Virus record (IMG/VR): IMGVR_UViG_3300025949_000085
Location: 1-25,553 of that record
Source of the DNA: a virus
Reading direction: 5' to 3' (one strand)
Length of the DNA: 25,553 bases
Below are positions 639 through 25,158 of the stretch, piece after piece. Below the pieces are notes generated by a model, which did not search any database, had not been told where the DNA came from, and saw nothing but the letters and a program-made list of their open reading frames with translations. Both the position numbers and the translations under genes were made by a program. Position 1 is the first letter of the stretch, and every line of letters starts with the position of its first letter.

Positions 639-784
639 TGAAAAATCCCCCAGATCGCCAATCCCCAGCCAATCGCGGCCACGATGAACGACGCCAGTAG
701 AAGCGATTTCAAGCGCGCATTGGCCTGCGACAATTCTTTGTTCGTCTGCGACATCCAGAATCTGTTTGGTGGTTCAAAGTTCAT
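635..784 (-). CDS. 49-aa single-pass membrane peptide
   Basis: Reading the minus strand from the ATG at 784 gives 49 codons: a hydrophilic N-terminus with a short amphipathic stretch (SQTNKELSQANARLKS) and then one hydrophobic segment (LLLASFIVAAIGWGLAIWG) ending at GIFQ. It is very short, but its start overlaps the stop of the DUF4326 gene and its stop overlaps the start of the next gene, both as ATGA, which strongly supports it. A C-terminal transmembrane anchor with a cytoplasmic N-terminus is likely. Roles such as membrane-associated superinfection exclusion or accessory lysis function are possible but unproven. Confidence 0.7.
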   Translation of the reverse strand: MNFEPPNRFWMSQTNKELSQANARLKSLLLASFIVAAIGWGLAIWGIFQ

Positions 785-1101
785 ATTAAGCGAGGGTTTG
801 CGATCCTGAGCAGCACGTCAGCATGACATGGGGTTCCAATTTTACACCAACACGCCAGATTCTTTCCGGCAAGCTCTTCACGGATGTTGGCCAGTGCGAA
901 CGGTGGCGTTGCGCCTTCGGCCAGCATCATCTCGAAGGCTTCAACTGCTTCGGCTTGCGATGCGTCATCCGTGAGTTTTCGCATCGGCCCCTTGCGCACT
1001 TTCCACGGATTTCCCCAGCGCGTCGGACGGCTTACCACCACTGTATTCGGCGGCAACCTCCATCCTTTTTTGCGCGATAGCTGGATTCTTTTTGGTGTCA
1101 T
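781..1101 (-). CDS. DUF4326 domain protein
   Basis: This 106-aa protein matches the remembered signature of DUF4326: an N-terminal RPTRWGNPW motif near residues 26-34, a middle helical region, and a C-terminal GKNLACWCKIGTPCHADVLL motif with paired Cys and His. The family is common in phages and bacterial genomes and its biochemical activity is not established to my knowledge. The conserved Cys/His cluster suggests a catalytic or metal-binding site. It is separated by 85 bp from the GIY-YIG gene upstream and coupled to the membrane peptide downstream. No clear Shine-Dalgarno precedes the ATG. Confidence 0.85.
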   Translation of the reverse strand: MTPKRIQLSRKKGWRLPPNTVVVSRPTRWGNPWKVRKGPMRKLTDDASQAEAVEAFEMMLAEGATPPFALANIREELAGKNLACWCKIGTPCHADVLLRIANPRLI

Positions 1102-1186: not shown

Positions 1187-1639
1187 TTATTTGGTTGGTA
1201 TTGTTGGTATTTCTACTTTCGGCACACGGATGATATAAAATCCGCCGCGCTCGTCAGAACCGGTTGCGTATTTAATGCCGAGCGATTTTGCCGCGCTACA
1301 AGCCTGCACCCTTTCCGTTTTTGTTGGAACCCAAAAAGATTTTCCGGCAGCAATTCTTTTCCTTATCTCGTTGGTTTTGAATCTTGTTCTCACCGGGTTT
1401 GGCAGATGTTTGTTGATAGGTTCCGATCCTTGATTTCTAAACTCGATAATCCATTTCCTTTCGGCCTTGTTTGCCTTGCTGTAAGCAACAACTTCAAGAA
1501 TCTTAATTTCAAAATCTTCCCGTATGGTGTTGTTGGAACGGTGTGCGCAACCGCGCGCTTTCATGTTTCTGGTTTGGCCCACATACCGGCATTTTCCGGT
1601 AGATTTTGAGAACAGGCCGTAGATAAAAATTCTTTTCAT
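1187..1639 (-). CDS. GIY-YIG nuclease-domain protein with C-terminal module
   Basis: A 150-aa protein. Residues 5-90 carry the GIY-YIG fold: FIYG and YVGQ correspond to the two namesake motifs, the Arg after TRNMKA is the expected catalytic-arginine region, and a Glu in AERKWIIEF is the likely metal-ligand Glu. Residues 100-150 form a separate module (GKSFWVPTKTERVQACSAAK) that resembles the whole of the 62-aa protein encoded immediately upstream. GIY-YIG proteins cut DNA in homing, repair or restriction. A free-standing phage copy could be a homing-like endonuclease or attack competing DNA. Its ATG overlaps the upstream stop as ATGA. Confidence 0.85.
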   Translation of the reverse strand: MKRIFIYGLFSKSTGKCRYVGQTRNMKARGCAHRSNNTIREDFEIKILEVVAYSKANKAERKWIIEFRNQGSEPINKHLPNPVRTRFKTNEIRKRIAAGKSFWVPTKTERVQACSAAKSLGIKYATGSDERGGFYIIRVPKVEIPTIPTK

Positions 1640-2408: not shown

Positions 2409-3161
2409 ATGGCAGACTGGTTCAAATTCTACGAGAACGACTTGGACGAAACTCGTCTGCAATACGCCATCTCTCAACTGCCAGAGGTTATTCCGGTGTG
2501 GGTCGGGATACTGTCGGAAGCGTGTCGGCACAAAGTCGGGACAGTGTCTTGGGGATCAGACGAGATTGAGCTTTTTGGATTTTCAAAGAGGCTTGGGCTA
2601 TCCATCCCAAAGGTCAATGAGGCCATAATTCTGCTCGAAAAGATACGATACATCAGCCGCCAGCCGGATTCCGTAACTGTGATAAAATGGGGTGAAAAAC
2701 AGTCAGAATACTGCCAAAAGCTGACCAAAAAGCAAAATCAGGCAGGCGATAAAAACCCAAATAATGGTAAAAGTGTCGGGACACTGTCGGGACACTGTCG
2801 GGACACTGTCGGCCAAGAGGAGAGGAGAGGAGAGGAGATAAGAGAAAAGAAAGAGAGAGAGTTCCCAGAAACTCCGCCAATGAGCCGAAAAGATTTCGAT
2901 TCGCTGGCAGAAATGAGGGGCGTGCCGAAAGACTGCGCTGAATGGTTTTGGAACACACACGACGCATCGAACTGGTTGGATGGCAGAGGTAATCCAATCC
3001 GAAAGGTAGAGCCATTGCTTCTGAATGCACTGAAGGTCTGGCGATCCAATGGGGCAAAAAAAACAAACGGACAATTCCCTTCATCCAAAAAACCTACTGC
3101 GACGATTCGCGACATGGTTCCGACGGCGGAACAACTTCGAGAAATGGGGATCGAGGAATGA
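2409..3161 (+). CDS. O-like phage replication initiator / helicase loader
   Basis: A 250-aa protein. Residues 1-100 (ADWFKFYENDLDETRLQYAI, then FSKRLGLSIPKVNEAIILLE) look like the winged-helix N-terminus of phage replication-initiation proteins that bind origin iterons. Residues about 115-160 are low-complexity and highly charged (EERRGEEIREKKEREFPE). Residues 160-225 (SRKDFDSLAEM ... WLDGRGNPIRKVEPLLLNAL) resemble the C-terminal domain of phage O/DnaD/DnaT-like proteins that contact helicase. The gene carries two 11-bp iteron arrays and a polypurine tract, so it probably contains its own origin. It overlaps the downstream primase-helicase start as ATGA. The family call rests on layout and motif memory, not on a search. 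Confidence 0.7.
   Translation: MADWFKFYENDLDETRLQYAISQLPEVIPVWVGILSEACRHKVGTVSWGSDEIELFGFSKRLGLSIPKVNEAIILLEKIRYISRQPDSVTVIKWGEKQSEYCQKLTKKQNQAGDKNPNNGKSVGTLSGHCRDTVGQEERRGEEIREKKEREFPETPPMSRKDFDSLAEMRGVPKDCAEWFWNTHDASNWLDGRGNPIRKVEPLLLNALKVWRSNGAKKTNGQFPSSKKPTATIRDMVPTAEQLREMGIEE
2502..2545 (+). repeat. Iteron array 1: four 11-bp GTCGG repeats
   Basis: Four units in exact 11-bp register: GTCGGGATACT, GTCGGAAGCGT, GTCGGCACAAA and GTCGGGACAGT. Because 11 is not a multiple of 3, the repeats are read in different frames, so protein-level repetition cannot explain them. The spacing puts each unit on nearly the same face of the helix. They match the consensus of the second array in the same gene. 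Confidence 0.8.
2775..2818 (+). repeat. Iteron array 2: three perfect 11-bp repeats plus a partial unit
   Basis: Three identical GTCGGGACACT units run from 2775 to 2807, followed by a fourth unit sharing only GTCGG (2808-2818). Counting two upstream bases, each junction forms AGTGTC-GG-GACACT or a close variant, a dyad within the repeat. The array lies directly upstream of a polypurine tract. Confidence 0.9.
2815..2861 (+). other. Polypurine tract beside the iterons
   Basis: All 47 bases are purines except a single T at 2839. The first part is a run of AGAGG-type repeats and the rest alternates AG and AAAG. It encodes a highly charged linker of the initiator protein. Such tracts are easily melted or form triplex structures, and placement immediately after iterons fits an origin unwinding element. 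Confidence 0.65.
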
Positions 3162-4855
3162 AATACGAGGACTTCATCAGCCGGTTTCAAAAGACGCGCA
3201 AGACCGGGCAGGGCGTTTTAGTTCGCTGCCCGCATCACGACGATTCAGACAAGACGCCTTCGCTGTCAATCTCGCCGGCCAGAGACGGCGGCGTTCTGGT
3301 CAAGTGTTTTGCCGGCTGCACAATGCCGGAGATTGTCGGCGCGCTCGGCTTGCAGCCAAAGGATTTATTCGCGAAGGAACTACCCGTGAAGTTCACCCCG
3401 CCGCCAGCCAAAGCGGAAAAGAAAAACGGCGAACCTGACGCGATCCCTGTCATTGACAAAATTTATTCCTACCGCGACGCGAACGGGGTTGAGGTTTATC
3501 AGGCACTGCGCATGAAACCGAAATCGTTCCGGCAACGTCACAGGGTCAACGGCGCATGGGTTTGGAAAATGGATGGTGTTGAGCGTGTGATTTATCGTCT
3601 GCCGGAAATCATCAAGGCACAAAGCGTCTGGATCACCGAAGGGGAAAAGGACGTTGAAAATTTAGTCGCGCTTGGATTTGAAGCAACCTGCAATGTCGGC
3701 GGTTCAAAAAACTGGCTGGAAAGTTACGGCGAAAACTTCACCGGAAAAGACGTTGTGATTTGTGGCGACAACGACAAGCCGGGGCTGGAATATGTCCAGT
3801 TCGTTTCTGAAACCATCGCTCCATTCGCGAAGACTGTTCGCGTCGTAAAGATGCCGAGCACGGTCAAAGATGTTTCCGACTACATCGCATCATTTAAAAA
3901 ACCGGACGAAGCAAGGGCGGCACTGCGGGACATGGCCGAAGCTGCGCATCCTTCGGTCAATGGCCACTCTCTGCCGATTTATTCCATTGGAGAAATGGAG
4001 TCGAGCTACAAAAACTTTGTGCGCTCAATGGGTGAAAATTCTTTTTCGCTGGGCAAGTGGCTTCCGACGCTTGGGTTGAGAATGCGCGCGCTCGTTCCCG
4101 GCGAACTTGTATTCATCATCGGCGACACCGGCACTGGCAAGACAGGAATCTTGCAGCAAATCGCCAAGGCGGCGCTGCCGCTACCAACGCTTTTCTTTGA
4201 GTTGGAGCTTCCAAAAGAATTGATGTTTGAGCGATTTGTTTCGATGACTACGCGTATGACGGGCGAGCAAGTAGAGACGACCTATCAAGCCCAAGACGAC
4301 ACGATAGCTTCAGAGATGGACGCCGCGTATGCCGGCCTGCTTGTCTGCCCCGTCGCCCGCCTTACGCTTGCGCGCATGGAGGAAATCATCACACGTTCAG
4401 AACTGAAGTTTGGCGAGCGCCCGCGCGTCGTCATGGTGGACTACATCCAGCTTGTGAAGGGTGAGGGCCAAAACCGGCGCGAGAAGATTTCCGACATTGC
4501 CGAGGAATTAAAAGTGATGGCGAAATCCACGCGAACCATAATCATCGCGTCCAGCCAGATCGCCCGGCCTCAAAATGTTGACGAAGATTGGGAGCCGACG
4601 CTTCACAGCGCCAAGGAATCAGGCAGCATCGAATCATCTTGCGGCGTGATGATCGGAGCTTGGCAGGACGCCAAAGAGGCGGCTACACTGAATCTTCGCG
4701 TGCTCAAATCAACCAAAGGCGGCACTGGAACATTCGTGAAATGCAACTTCGACGGCGCAAGGATGCTAATAACCGAGCGGGCGAAGTTTGCGCCAGAGGA
4801 TTACCCCAACCAGCACAACGGTCGGGGTGAGCGACACGGCCCAAATGAAATATGA
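3158..4855 (+). CDS. Bifunctional DNA primase-helicase (T7 gp4-like)
   Basis: A 565-aa replicative enzyme that should synthesise primers and unwind DNA at the phage fork. Residues 20-60 form a CHC2-type zinc finger (C24, H26/H27, C50, C54). Residues 155-235 form a TOPRIM domain with E161 in EGEKD and a GDND motif at 203-206. Residues 295-540 form a DnaB/RecA-like helicase with Walker A GDTGTGKT (322-329), a catalytic-Glu region FFELEL, Walker B ending at D428 (VVMVDYIQL) and a sensor SSQIARP near 465-471. Length and order match T7 gp4-like proteins. The ATG overlaps the initiator stop (ATGA), fitting a co-translated replisome pair. Confidence 0.93.
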   Translation: MKYEDFISRFQKTRKTGQGVLVRCPHHDDSDKTPSLSISPARDGGVLVKCFAGCTMPEIVGALGLQPKDLFAKELPVKFTPPPAKAEKKNGEPDAIPVIDKIYSYRDANGVEVYQALRMKPKSFRQRHRVNGAWVWKMDGVERVIYRLPEIIKAQSVWITEGEKDVENLVALGFEATCNVGGSKNWLESYGENFTGKDVVICGDNDKPGLEYVQFVSETIAPFAKTVRVVKMPSTVKDVSDYIASFKKPDEARAALRDMAEAAHPSVNGHSLPIYSIGEMESSYKNFVRSMGENSFSLGKWLPTLGLRMRALVPGELVFIIGDTGTGKTGILQQIAKAALPLPTLFFELELPKELMFERFVSMTTRMTGEQVETTYQAQDDTIASEMDAAYAGLLVCPVARLTLARMEEIITRSELKFGERPRVVMVDYIQLVKGEGQNRREKISDIAEELKVMAKSTRTIIIASSQIARPQNVDEDWEPTLHSAKESGSIESSCGVMIGAWQDAKEAATLNLRVLKSTKGGTGTFVKCNFDGARMLITERAKFAPEDYPNQHNGRGERHGPNEI

Positions 4856-7599: not shown

Positions 7600-9477
7600 A
7601 TGCCAGTTAATCCTCAATTCGACTCCGCGCAACAAATTCTCACCGAAAGACTGAGATGGGAAACGAAGATTCGGCGTTATTACGCCATGCGCCACGATGG
7701 ACTCCCGCGTCGCGACAAAACGAAGCCTTGGCAGGCCGACCTGCACAGCAAGACCATTGATCGTGCCATTCGGAAATCAAAGCCGTTCTGGATGGGGCAA
7801 CTAACGGCTGGCGATCGACTCTGCAACTTCACGGCACTCAAGCAGCAGGTTCAATCGCAGTCTGACGCGGCTGCGGATTATTACGACTTCATCACGTATC
7901 AAGAAACGGATTTGATTGATGAAATTGACTGCGCTGTTGACCACATGCTGCTAAAGGGCCGCGGCATCATCAAGTCAACCGTTGATCCGTTGGATGGCTA
8001 CCGCATTGTTGACGAGGCCATTGACCCCATGTTCCTGTTGATGCCGAAGTCGGCGAACGACTTTGACGATTCCGACGAGTGGATTCATGTCCGCCAGTTC
8101 ACGGTTGCAAGCTATCGGCTGCTTGATGCTCGCTGGGACACGTCCGAAGAAACAATTCAGAAAATTCGCGGCAACGCAGACTTTCAATCGCTGGGCATCT
8201 ACAAGATTGAAATGGAGCTTCGCGAAGGAATAACTCACTCGTCCGACTCAAACGAAATCCTGGTGTTCGAGCATTGGGTGCGAACCGCAGGCGGCCACAC
8301 GATTCACACCTACTCTCCGCACGCGCCGGAAATTCCACTTCGCAAGCCCTACGGAAATCCCTACAAGTGGCGCAAGAAGGAATCCATTTGCTTCACGTCG
8401 TTTCAGATGGAGTCCAAGGAAAAAGGCTGGTATGCGCCTCGCGGCCTTGGCGAATTGCTAGATGTCCAGGAGCAGAAGGAAACCTACATCGAGAATATGT
8501 GGGCTGACGGGATGCGGATCGCGAACACACGCATTTTCACAAGCCAGAAGGAAATTCAGAACATGGCGAATCTTCGCCTCGATGACGGCCAGTTCATCGG
8601 TGGCGGGATTGAGTCGGTAAACTTCTCGCCGCCGCCCGTGCCTTACACGGAGATGTTGAATTATTCCAAGGCCGTCAGCGAAGAGATTGGGCAGGTGCCC
8701 GACGCCGGGATCACGGCTGCGGACAGCAAGACCGGCGGTAAGCCGATCACTGCCGCTGAGTCGAATCGCATTGGCGCGCTGACGCAGGTCGGCATGGGTT
8801 ACTCGGCAGATTTGTTCCGTCGCCGCCTCGCCAAACTTCACCGTCATCGCTGGGGTTTGATTTGCCAGTTCAAAGAGCGCGATTACGTCTATTATTCAAC
8901 CGGACAGTTGAACACGCTTCCTGAGCAAGCACTGCATGACAGCTACCTGATTACGCCGGACGGATCGCCGGACGGCTGGAATCGCCAAGCCAAGCTGCAA
9001 CGCGAGGTCATGCTGATGAACACCTTTGCGCAGTTGCCAAACAGCAACGCCGATTACTGGGTCAAGCGCGCGATGTCTGCGGCTGATGGGCAAGCGGCCC
9101 TGCAAGGCTTTATTCCGACAGGATTGAAAGACCAGAACGAGTCCGAGGCGCAGGCGATGGAACTGCTTTTGCTGACAGCGATGCCTCCTTATCCAGCCAA
9201 AGTTGAGCCGCAACAGAACCAGCTTGTCCGCATCCAGACGATTCTGCAATGGCTCGAAGCCGCTCACCATCTCGGCAAGCCGATGAATCCGCAGGCGCAG
9301 CAGCTGATCTTCCAGAACCTTGGCCAGCGGATGCAGATTTTGCAGCAGCAAAACCCGGCGGCGCACAAGGCGGCGGCGCAGTTGATGCAACAGATGGAGC
9401 AGGCGTTGGCTCAAGCGCCGGATGGCGCTGGCCCACAAACACAGATTCAACCGCAACCGATGACTCAAACGGCATAA
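7600..9477 (+). CDS. Portal protein (P22-like head-tail connector)
   Basis: A 625-aa protein forming the dodecameric portal through which DNA enters and leaves. The N-terminal part (WETKIRRYYAMRHDGLPRRD, then KPWQADLHSKTIDRAIR) and the central region (LIDEIDCAVDHMLLKGRGII) look like P22-type portal proteins. The C-terminal 60 residues are Gln-rich and probably helical (barrel or crown). A TTG at 7564 would add 12 residues, but the ATG is preferred because the upstream bases fit a repeated intergenic motif. It lies directly after the large terminase, as expected. Confidence 0.85.
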   Translation: MPVNPQFDSAQQILTERLRWETKIRRYYAMRHDGLPRRDKTKPWQADLHSKTIDRAIRKSKPFWMGQLTAGDRLCNFTALKQQVQSQSDAAADYYDFITYQETDLIDEIDCAVDHMLLKGRGIIKSTVDPLDGYRIVDEAIDPMFLLMPKSANDFDDSDEWIHVRQFTVASYRLLDARWDTSEETIQKIRGNADFQSLGIYKIEMELREGITHSSDSNEILVFEHWVRTAGGHTIHTYSPHAPEIPLRKPYGNPYKWRKKESICFTSFQMESKEKGWYAPRGLGELLDVQEQKETYIENMWADGMRIANTRIFTSQKEIQNMANLRLDDGQFIGGGIESVNFSPPPVPYTEMLNYSKAVSEEIGQVPDAGITAADSKTGGKPITAAESNRIGALTQVGMGYSADLFRRRLAKLHRHRWGLICQFKERDYVYYSTGQLNTLPEQALHDSYLITPDGSPDGWNRQAKLQREVMLMNTFAQLPNSNADYWVKRAMSAADGQAALQGFIPTGLKDQNESEAQAMELLLLTAMPPYPAKVEPQQNQLVRIQTILQWLEAAHHLGKPMNPQAQQLIFQNLGQRMQILQQQNPAAHKAAAQLMQQMEQALAQAPDGAGPQTQIQPQPMTQTA

Positions 9478-16114: not shown

Positions 16115-16471
16115 ATGGAGTTCAATCGCGAGTATGACGCCGACACAGAATCAGCTATCGGAATCAGCCCCATCAAGGAGATTCCGAAATTTGAGCCGCG
16201 CATATCCGTGGCCGAAATGGAGCAGTTGATGGATATGGACGAAAAACTCCAGCCGATTGCGATTGCGACCCACAAGGCGCTTTCGATGGCGGAGCAGAGG
16301 GGAAGCTGGCGAGATGAAGTTATGGTCAATTTGGTTGCCCGCGTGCGCGAAATGCGCCGCGAGCAGATACGGGCCGGAAGGTCTAAAAATAGCTGGATTG
16401 GTGAGATCGTGAAGATTGCGATTAGTTCGTTGCTGGCCGCGCTTGCGCTTTGGTGGTTAAAGCTTTTATGA
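16115..16471 (+). CDS. C-terminally anchored membrane protein
   Basis: A 118-aa protein. The first 95 residues are hydrophilic and helical, with acidic (AEMEQLMDMDEKLQ) then basic (VREMRREQIRAGRSKNS) parts. The final 20 form one transmembrane helix (IVKIAISSLLAALALWWLKL). The N-in, C-terminal-anchor topology fits a phage accessory lysis or membrane-associated factor; no family is recognised. Its stop overlaps the response-regulator ATG as ATGA, which suggests the two are made together and may cooperate at the membrane. Confidence 0.65.
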   Translation: MEFNREYDADTESAIGISPIKEIPKFEPRISVAEMEQLMDMDEKLQPIAIATHKALSMAEQRGSWRDEVMVNLVARVREMRREQIRAGRSKNSWIGEIVKIAISSLLAALALWWLKLL

Positions 16472-16890
16472 AACTGACTGACATTTTTGTAAGCGAGTTG
16501 AGGAACTTCAACGCCGACGACTACAAGCGTCCGCGCCGGGTTCTCATCCTTGAGGACGATCCCGACACAGGGCGCCTGTTGAATGAGATCATATCCAGTG
16601 AAGGGTGCCGAGTGACGCTCATTGATTCCGCAGACAGGGCGGTTGAACTGGTGGAGAAAACAATCCCGTTCACGCGCATTTTTGTGGACTTGAATTTGCC
16701 GGTCGGGCCGAGCGGCGCAGTAGCCATCCGCCGAATCCGCGACCGTCTGCCGGACGCGCCGATCACCATAATTACCGGCTTTGTCACGCAGGAATTGGAG
16801 GCCGCTGCGAAGGAAAATAATTGCGACATCCTGCAAAAAGGAACCTTTCTTCCTGAAGACATCAAGGATATTGTCAGGCAATCAAAATGA
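16468..16890 (+). CDS. Stand-alone response-regulator receiver (CheY-like)
   Basis: A 140-aa protein that is essentially one receiver domain. The acidic pocket is E29, D30 and D31 (VLILEDDPD), the phospho-acceptor is D74 (IFVDLNLP), the switch Thr is T103 (IITGF) and the conserved Lys is K124 (LQKGTF). All key residues are present, so it could be phosphorylated by a host histidine kinase. There is no DNA-binding output domain. The first 22 residues form a short helical extension. It is coupled to the membrane protein upstream and to a small gene downstream, both by ATGA. A free receiver within a virion/lysis operon is uncommon. Confidence 0.9.
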   Translation: MKLTDIFVSELRNFNADDYKRPRRVLILEDDPDTGRLLNEIISSEGCRVTLIDSADRAVELVEKTIPFTRIFVDLNLPVGPSGAVAIRRIRDRLPDAPITIITGFVTQELEAAAKENNCDILQKGTFLPEDIKDIVRQSK

Positions 16891-17953: not shown

Positions 17954-18409
17954 ATGACCCCGCAAGAAACACTCGCCATTTGCGGATATGCCCTGACGCC
18001 GGGGCATTTTAGCAGCCGCACAGTCAACGTCATTACGCCTGATTTTCAGGTGTTTGACCTGATGGCAGATGTTTTCTATCTGTCGGCATCTGGAACGCTC
18101 TATAAGCTCGCCAGAGGCTCCGTGAGTGACTTGGCGAGCGTGCCGAAGCCGTTTTGGAATCTGTTGCCTCCGCAAGGCACGGCGGGAGCGGAATACGCGC
18201 TGGCGGCGTTCGGACATGACTGCGCCTATCGGAACACCCTTCGAGTGTGGAACGGTTCGGCGTGGGTTTTGGCGGCTTTGTCCAAGTCTGATTGTGACTC
18301 GCTGTTGAAGGAAATGATGCTGGCTTGCCAAGTGCCAGAAGTGACTGCCGAGACGATTTATCAGGGCGTTAACTTGGCTGGAAGTCATGCGTTCAACGAA
18401 GACCGTTGA
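17954..18409 (+). CDS. DUF1353 domain protein
   Basis: A 151-aa protein with the DUF1353 signature: GSVSDLASVPKPFWNLLPPQ near residues 55-74, then AAFGHDCAYR near 84-93, and a helix LSKSDCDSLLKEMM. The family is common in phages and often lies near lysis genes; its activity is unknown to me, but the conserved His-Asp pair suggests an enzyme. It follows the barrel gene by 3 bp. Because no ordinary endolysin is seen, a cell-wall role is conceivable but unproven. Confidence 0.8.
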   Translation: MTPQETLAICGYALTPGHFSSRTVNVITPDFQVFDLMADVFYLSASGTLYKLARGSVSDLASVPKPFWNLLPPQGTAGAEYALAAFGHDCAYRNTLRVWNGSAWVLAALSKSDCDSLLKEMMLACQVPEVTAETIYQGVNLAGSHAFNEDR

Positions 18410-23674: not shown

Positions 23675-24736
23675 ATGGGATTATTCGGCGGATCAGTTCC
23701 AAATCCAGCAGATGCCGCAGTGGGCGGCATGAAGGCAGACCTTGTCAATTTCCCGTCCACATGGATGGCTAATTCGGCTGCGCAAACAGGCAGCAAGGTC
23801 GTCATCAACGGCAAGGTTTATGATTTTTCGGGGCTGGGCAATGCCGATCAACAGGGAGCCATATCGGACACGATGGCCAAGGCGTTGCTGGACATCCAAA
23901 AAAACTATGGGGCCGATTTTGTAAAGCAACGGCTGGCCGATTTGCAGCGGTCTGACCCCACTGGATTTGCCGCCAGAAAACAGCTTTTCGACAAGATTCT
24001 TGAAGACTCACAGAAGGCCGCCCCGAATCAGCAGATGTCCGAAGACTTGCAAGGGCAGGTCAACACAATGCTCCAAGGGGCTGGCGGTTTGGATGAGCAA
24101 GGCCGTCAAGAGGTTCAAAATAGCGTCAGGGGCCGTCAGGCGGCGCGTGGCATCATCTTGGGCAATGCGCCAGCACAGGAAGAGGCGCAAGCCGTGGTTC
24201 AGGCCCAGGACACGTTGCGCACGCAGCAACAACAGTCTGCTGAGGATTACCTAAAATCCGGCATCAGCCCGCAAGACATCCAGTTCCGCAAGATTCAACA
24301 GGACTTGGCGAACTTGGGGGCATTCCAGAACGGTCAAACACCCGAAGCGCAATTTGGTCAACTTGCCGGTGCTGGAAATGGGGCTGCTCCGTTTTCGACG
24401 CCGAATTATTCCAATCCGGCCAGCCTTAACCCCAACGCCGCCGGCATCGGAATCAATTTTGCTCAATCGAATTTCAACACCAGCCAGCAAAACGCGAATC
24501 CGTTCATGGCTGGCGCTGGAATGGTTATCGGCGGGATTAACAACATCGCCAACTCTGGGTTTTTCAGCCGTCCGACTACAACTTCCAGCCCCTACGTTCC
24601 ATCGTTTAGCTCCCCGGCGACGCAGGTGAGCTACAGCAACGCTTTCTCGACACCGGCCGCGCCGCCTTCTGGAATCTCGTATGAGAATGCCTATTCGGGA
24701 GGCGGTGGATCGGTTGGCTTAAACGCTACGTTATGA
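23675..24736 (+). CDS. Putative internal virion / DNA-ejection protein
   Basis: A 353-aa protein. It starts MGLFGGSVPNPADAAVGG; the first 220 residues are helical and Gln/Asp-rich (QQGAISDTMAKALLDIQKNY, then EEAQAVVQAQDTLRTQQQQS). The last 130 are low-complexity Asn/Ser/Ala/Gly-rich (YSNPASLNPNAAGIGINFAQ). This two-part make-up and the place after the tail genes are typical of podoviral ejection proteins carried inside the capsid. The exact family is not recognised. It overlaps the next ATG by 4 bp. Confidence 0.65.
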   Translation: MGLFGGSVPNPADAAVGGMKADLVNFPSTWMANSAAQTGSKVVINGKVYDFSGLGNADQQGAISDTMAKALLDIQKNYGADFVKQRLADLQRSDPTGFAARKQLFDKILEDSQKAAPNQQMSEDLQGQVNTMLQGAGGLDEQGRQEVQNSVRGRQAARGIILGNAPAQEEAQAVVQAQDTLRTQQQQSAEDYLKSGISPQDIQFRKIQQDLANLGAFQNGQTPEAQFGQLAGAGNGAAPFSTPNYSNPASLNPNAAGIGINFAQSNFNTSQQNANPFMAGAGMVIGGINNIANSGFFSRPTTTSSPYVPSFSSPATQVSYSNAFSTPAAPPSGISYENAYSGGGGSVGLNATL

Positions 24737-25158
24737 ACAAGATTCAGCAAATCAACAATGTGCCGCCGACTATCGTAAGGGTGGATTGTCCGCTGACCAA
24801 TCTGTTTGCGGATGGCATTTACTGGCGCGAGATTCTGATTCCCAAAGGGACAATCGCCGTTGGCCGAAAGCACAAAACCGAGCATATCAACGTGCTGCTT
24901 TCTGGCCGAGTCCGCGTGGTTTGTGACGGAAAGCTGATCGAGCTTTCCGCTCCGCGGGTGTTCAAGTCTCCGGCTGGAGTTCGTAAGGCGGTTTGCGCCA
25001 TCGAGGACACGCGTTGGGCGAATGTTCATCCCAACCCTTCAAACGAGCAGGACATGGACAGTCTTGAGGAGGTTTTTGTGGAAAAGGGTGGCGATTTTCT
25101 TGGATGTGAAAACGAGATCAACCAGCTTTTAAACAATCAACCTGAAAGGATCGAATAA
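24733..25158 (+). CDS. Cupin-like phage protein
   Basis: A 141-aa protein with a single beta-barrel cupin pattern: KHKTEHINVLLSGRVRVVCD, then GKLIELSAPRVFKSPAGVRK and a closing strand with VHPNP. His residues in the first motif (H57-type positions in KHKTEH) and H in VHPN could bind a metal. Similar proteins occur in tail regions of some podovirus-like phages, but their role is not known to me. It overlaps the upstream gene by 4 bp and ends 1 bp before the next, so it is translated with the virion genes. Confidence 0.75.
   Translation: MNKIQQINNVPPTIVRVDCPLTNLFADGIYWREILIPKGTIAVGRKHKTEHINVLLSGRVRVVCDGKLIELSAPRVFKSPAGVRKAVCAIEDTRWANVHPNPSNEQDMDSLEEVFVEKGGDFLGCENEINQLLNNQPERIE

Follow-up and report, generated by a model that had tools for sequence, protein, structure and literature searches.

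A probable phage replication origin of the intragenic iteron kind: 11-bp repeats and a purine tract within an initiator-type gene

The window, the whole stretch of 25,553 nucleotides of a viral contig analysed here (IMG/VR record IMGVR_UViG_3300025949_000085), probably contains a phage replication origin that lies inside the gene for the phage's own initiator, at 2409-3161. It would be of the same kind as the intragenic iteron origins of lambda and Tuc2009, possibly as a two-block variant. As far as the DNA can be read, the locus appears to belong to this kind in function: tandem repeats of non-triplet length lie mid-gene, a tract of the unwinding type adjoins them and a primase-DnaB gene is adjacent. 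Points that count against an origin are a tract that is not AT-rich like that of lambda, the lack of block 1 in the two closest relatives, the weak family match of the protein and a structure model built on few sequences. The elements of the locus are the following:

2409-3161, + strand: gene for an initiator or DnaD-like helicase loader (250 aa; phrog_186 and phrog_678 profile matches; MADWFKFY start)
2409-2750, + strand: codons 1-114, predicted winged-helix domain and long helix, likely DNA-binding part (AlphaFold2 pLDDT mostly 70-92; structural alignment)
2502-2549, + strand: putative iteron block 1, four GTCGG units and a fifth, degenerate GTC at 2546, within the sequence coding for the winged-helix domain
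2751-2873, + strand: codons 115-155, predicted disordered linker (pLDDT <50 at residues 115-155)
2774-2816, + strand: iteron block 2, three identical 11-bp TGTCGGGACAC units and a fourth, partial TGTCGGCC
2815-2861, + strand: purine tract, candidate unwinding or helicase-entry element (46 of 47 bases A or G, partly as GGAGA repeats)
2886-3053, + strand: codons 160-215, small helical C-terminal domain, candidate helicase/primase contact (helices from AlphaFold2, function by inference)
3158-4855, + strand: primase (Toprim) - DnaB-type helicase gene (DnaB_C, E 1.5e-27; Toprim_2, E 8.9e-5; phrog_239)

Profile matches and gene order indicate that 2409-3161 is an initiator-type gene beside a primase-helicase gene, which lies directly downstream and whose start overlaps the initiator stop. 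The product matches the DnaD-like helicase loaders of phrog_186 weakly (E 4.4e-5, residues 3-128) and the O-like replication initiation proteins of phrog_678 at E 0.024 only. No Pfam family reaches its cut-off with this protein, Phage_rep_O (PF04492) gives no match up to E 1 and the RepA_N profile gives none. The neighboring product matches phrog_239, DNA primase/helicase, at E 4.8e-48; the first-pass annotation had called 2409-3161 an initiator gene, and the phrog_186 match together with this adjoining gene upholds that call. The MADWFKFY start is conserved among relatives of the protein. The annotated phages searched with the protein contained no match, and a sequence search of the PDB gave no meaningful one. 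Two scans of a bacterial and archaeal genome collection yielded no relatives, and therefore no host is assigned. GC skew, which had been proposed as a check on the origin, does reach its minimum at ~2.0-2.5 kb; because the gene strand also switches there, the minimum is not independent evidence. The contig also encodes tailed-phage packaging and head genes. Other reading frames of the window comprise a 146-aa response regulator receiver domain protein at 16450-16890 (+) (PF00072, E 2.3e-12), unusual in a small phage genome, a GIY-YIG catalytic domain protein at 1187-1639 (-) (PF01541, E 7.5e-5), at the left end on the strand opposite to the replication genes, a DUF4326 protein at 781-1101 (-) (PF14216, E 6e-23), a DUF1353 protein at 17954-18409 (+) (PF07087, E 1.7e-12) and, near the right end at 24733-25158 (+), a weak cupin-domain match below the curated cut-off (PF07883, E 0.0014).

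Block 2 is a near-perfect array. GTCGG occurs at 2775, 2786, 2797 and 2808, in exact 11-bp register, and the block shows alternating TGTC and GACA half-sites. Its lag-11 self-match is 22/22, a value reached in none of 2000 synonymous-codon shuffles and none of 300 codon shuffles; block 2 is very unlikely to have arisen by chance. The purine tract adjoins it immediately downstream; among all purine and pyrimidine runs in the window, the two longest fall within this tract. Its duplex stability lies ~1.75 SD below the mean of the window, and its GC content is 48%. The first-pass annotation had included this tract in its interval (2502-2861) without mentioning it. It had described eight GTCGG units in two arrays of exact 11-bp register, and these are indeed found at 2502-2535 and 2775-2808. 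Of the single consensus it proposed, GTCGGGACACT, GTCGG is common to both arrays and the rest comes mostly from block 2. Its argument that a unit of non-triplet length cannot result from coding repetition is borne out for block 2 by the shuffles, and also by a relative (L002) that carries the array as its reverse complement. Coding repetition is thus ruled out as the cause of the repeats: a period of 11 bp does not fit whole codons, and the inversion changes the peptide.

Protein search with the window protein found eight loci, about five of them distinct, and a profile search with the alignment of these relatives returned only the same eight. The relatives are 25-69% identical to the window protein; the position of the array and the purine tract are kept and the unit sequence is changed. 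In the closest relative (L002, 69% identical) the units are CCCGACAGTGT and the array matches that of the window exactly, over 39 of 39 bases, but as the reverse complement. The encoded peptide therefore differs while the double-stranded sites are kept, which points to selection on the DNA sites rather than on the protein. The arrays of the other relatives consist of 11-bp CCCGACACACT/CCCGACAGTGT units (L003), 10-bp GTCCAGAAAA units (L004) or ACTACCCACAA units (L008), and that of L005 is degenerate. All lie between the N-domain and the C-domain and are followed by a purine-rich tract, mostly of the GGAGA or GAGTA/GAGAA type. The prediction that the repeats would be conserved where the protein diverges, set in advance as a check, thus holds for block 2, both among these relatives and across a large set of other phages; block 1 is absent from the two closest relatives. 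An exact search for the unit pair of the window located the same repeats in initiators with another N-domain, Lin1244_N/DUF4373. Three of these (L010 at 7966-8718, L011 at 3300-4082 and L012) carry the window iteron, on the AGTGTCCCGAC strand, followed by in-phase TCCAGAA units that resemble those of L004. This arrangement may reflect an exchange of sites between initiator types.

Contigs collected by the purine tract alone gave 225 unique contexts, 220 of which were analysed for periodicity. In the 90 bp upstream of the tract the lag-11 identity was 0.366 (z 43 against shuffles), with harmonics at lag 22 (z 18) and lag 33 (z 10), whereas identity was ~0.27 in the 90 bp downstream and at 250-400 bp upstream, with no 11-bp signal downstream. 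Taking one protein per homology group (n = 38), lag-11 identity was 0.372 vs ~0.25 for neighboring lags. Nine of ten sampled survey proteins match PHROG replication initiation or replisome families, some weakly; the exception, L173, matches families of unknown function only. Named Vibrio, Pantoea, Pseudoalteromonas and Escherichia phages, which were not chosen by their tracts, agree with the 11-bp period, and most of the sampled named phages with DUF4373 initiators have TCATGA-type units in 11-bp register. Lag-11 identity was 0.33-0.35 in 29 contexts chosen by homology of the C-terminal domain, a sample imperfectly independent of the tract, since one search peptide overlapped tract coding. A 5-bp period was considered as a general property of the purine tracts and dropped, several homology-sampled tracts having a 6-bp period. 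Examples of this layout of intragenic repeats and tract have already been described in a few phages and plasmids; the survey suggests a wide occurrence, in some cases with doubling.

Doubling concerns block 1 of the window. Here GTCGG recurs at 2502, 2513, 2524 and 2535, again in exact 11-bp register, in the units GTCGGGATACT, GTCGGAAGCGT, GTCGGCACAAA and GTCGGGACAGT, which have in common GTCGG and a few more bases. The gap to block 2 measures 224 bp, close to the earlier estimate of about 230 bp, and block 1 sits ~265-315 bp upstream of the purine tract. A four-unit GTCGG run with 11-bp spacing arises at this place in 0.35% of synonymous shuffles and in none of 2000 whole-gene codon shuffles; plain lag-11 identity gives p = 0.005-0.01, and the recurrence of block 2 motifs in the N-terminal part of the gene gives p = 0.001. 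Block 1 could nevertheless be a coding coincidence produced by codon choice, with the origin consisting of block 2 and the tract only, an explanation that is compatible with the main one and has a little less than an even chance. The two closest relatives, L002 and L003 (56% identical to the window protein), lack block 1, its units are degenerate beyond GTCGG, and the p values lie at 0.001-0.01 for a pattern picked by eye. Against coincidence, both the unit of block 2 and its 11-bp phase recur at this place, and the linker motif also recurs in the N-terminal part of other initiators, a signal that weakens on averaging over homology groups. Two or more pairs of array motifs 10-12 bp apart occur in the N-domain part in 52% of 150 loci, vs 12% with swapped motifs, 6% downstream and 15% for synonymous shuffles. 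The distances between paired motifs have maxima at 11-12, 22-23 and 33-34 bp, with 384 pairs at 11 bp vs 52 in synonymous shuffles (~7x), and the matches are concentrated 200-375 bp upstream of the tract. This recurrence is strongest in one large homology component (104 proteins; 70% of scorable members) and sporadic in the others, the mean over components being 0.20 vs 0.09. Because of this sporadic distribution outside one component, its absence from L002 and L003 and a signal that is only suggestive in L004 and L005, block 1 is regarded as plausible, not established. In the N-domains of L158, L193 and L240 an apparent VTRNVTRNVTV-type insert, encoded by GTAAC/GTGAC repeats, occupies the place of block 1.

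A broader proposal, tentative and somewhat likelier to fail than to hold, is that many tailed phages have a two-block origin in the initiator gene, with one block in the part coding for the DNA-binding domain, a second block of the same sites in the linker, and then the purine tract. The two blocks would change together and keep the 11-bp phase, and the initiator would bridge them by looping or wrapping. The site would be passed on, exchanged and kept matched to its reading domain. In the literature searched, a partial set with few subscription papers, no two-block intragenic phage origin was found.

Among known systems, the rep2009 gene (orf16) of the Lactococcus phage Tuc2009, which encodes a DnaD-like replisome organiser, is like the window in having 11-bp units mid-gene. 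Five such units (GGCAACCAAGT, GTCAACCATTC, CGCAACCAAAT, GACAACCAAAT and GTCCGCACAGG) are directly followed by GGATAGGATAGGAGAGG, in a 5-bp-periodic purine-rich tract, as the array of the window adjoins its own. Tuc2009 Rep, which served as positive control, is annotated "contains origin of replication", and Rep2009 binds repeats inside its own gene that serve as ori (PMC8965321). The unit sequence is unrelated to that of the window, the C-domain is Rep_Org_C, not detected in the window protein, and, unlike in the window, the downstream gene is not a helicase. A block 1 in Tuc2009 is not claimed: the count was formally significant, but the matches are scattered AT-rich 5-mers. TP901-1 rep has no 11-bp array, and its strongest repeat is at lag 15. 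In lambda and the Stx phages, ori lies in gene O, where mid-gene iterons are followed by an unwinding tract and the initiator takes part in helicase loading (PMC7466680). The lambda iterons are 18 bp long and ~20-24 bp apart, in contrast to the 11-bp units of the window, and the adjoining tract is AT-rich. Lambda ori has one block only, with no motif recurrence in the N-terminal part of O, and its initiator belongs to Phage_rep_O, whereas the window protein is not a member of the lambda O family. The parallel to lambda ori drawn by the first-pass annotation is supported, with Tuc2009 as precedent, and is qualified by the missing block 1 of the two closest relatives.

Two further systems share parts of this organisation. 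Rep of plasmid pSK41 (RepA_N type) binds, through a winged-helix N-domain, Rep boxes central in rep; the linker encoded by the ori is dispensable, the C-domain contacts primase and the protein resembles DnaD (PMC5703833). The plan of winged helix, linker and C-domain is the same as in the window, although pSK41 is a plasmid and the likeness is one of plan. In phage SPP1, oriL lies in gene 38, whose product gp38 binds direct repeats there, and an unwinding element is also present (PMC6316719). Compared by description only, SPP1 differs from the window in its AT-rich unwinding element, a second origin (oriR) ~13 kb away and a separate loader, gp39. Alternatively, sites of this kind could be operators and no origin, used by the initiator or by a phage repressor to control transcription of its own operon. 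Arrays inside an early gene could serve autoregulation and the two functions are compatible, but the array lies mid-gene and not at a promoter, its coupling to the purine tract is constant and the Tuc2009 precedent is an origin; operators without an origin are therefore improbable.

The AlphaFold2 model, built on six sequences and with a mean pLDDT of 66.8, comprises a winged helix to residue 92, a helix at 96-114, disorder at 115-155 and a small helical C-domain (helices 160-169, 174-183 and 200-215) that differs between relatives. The winged-helix part aligns to CRP/FNR-type and plasmid initiator (RepA N-terminal) winged helices with Z 7.2-7.8 over 65-83 residues; the N-domains of RepA_N plasmid initiators (Z 7.2-7.5 over 83 residues) are tied with the CRP/FNR winged helices. 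Winged helices are a common fold, and all matches here have Z <8. The structural alignment of the model supports DNA binding by the N-domain and points to no particular family. The predicted disordered linker coincides with block 2 and the purine tract. Such a tolerant segment might have acquired its repeats by low-complexity slippage, without any function at the DNA level, and purine tracts can slip. However, unrelated phages with different units have a common 11-bp period (the one-per-homology-group value given above), neutral coding slippage should favor multiples of 3, and the array was flipped in L002 without conservation of the protein, all of which makes slippage improbable. Lastly, although two clusters of 11-bp direct repeats recall plasmid R1 parC, a partition (centromere-like) site such as the parC of a ParMRC system with short direct repeats is scarcely credible, since no ParM/ParA- or ParR-like protein occurs in the subset of window ORFs scanned and the array lies inside a replication gene beside a helicase gene.

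For the replication origin, the preferred reading, a sequence of events can be proposed. The winged-helix N-terminal domain would bind the iterons along a single face of the DNA, each helical turn taking up one molecule or half a dyad. Once assembled, this complex would strain and open the adjoining purine tract, and the C-terminal domain would bring in the helicase of the primase-DnaB type encoded by the next gene. Block 1 would probably be a second cluster of the same sites upstream of block 2, a weakly supported step; the same protein might then hold the two blocks together, or block 1 might serve autoregulation.

To our knowledge, the origins of most uncultured phages are unmapped. Any contig can be screened for an 11-bp-phased array beside a purine tract midway through an initiator gene, a signature independent of the repeat sequence. 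The many natural pairs of DNA-binding domain and site located on one gene would be useful for understanding how winged-helix initiators change their specificity, and, with a motif shared by both blocks, such origins allow a direct test of looping or bridging.
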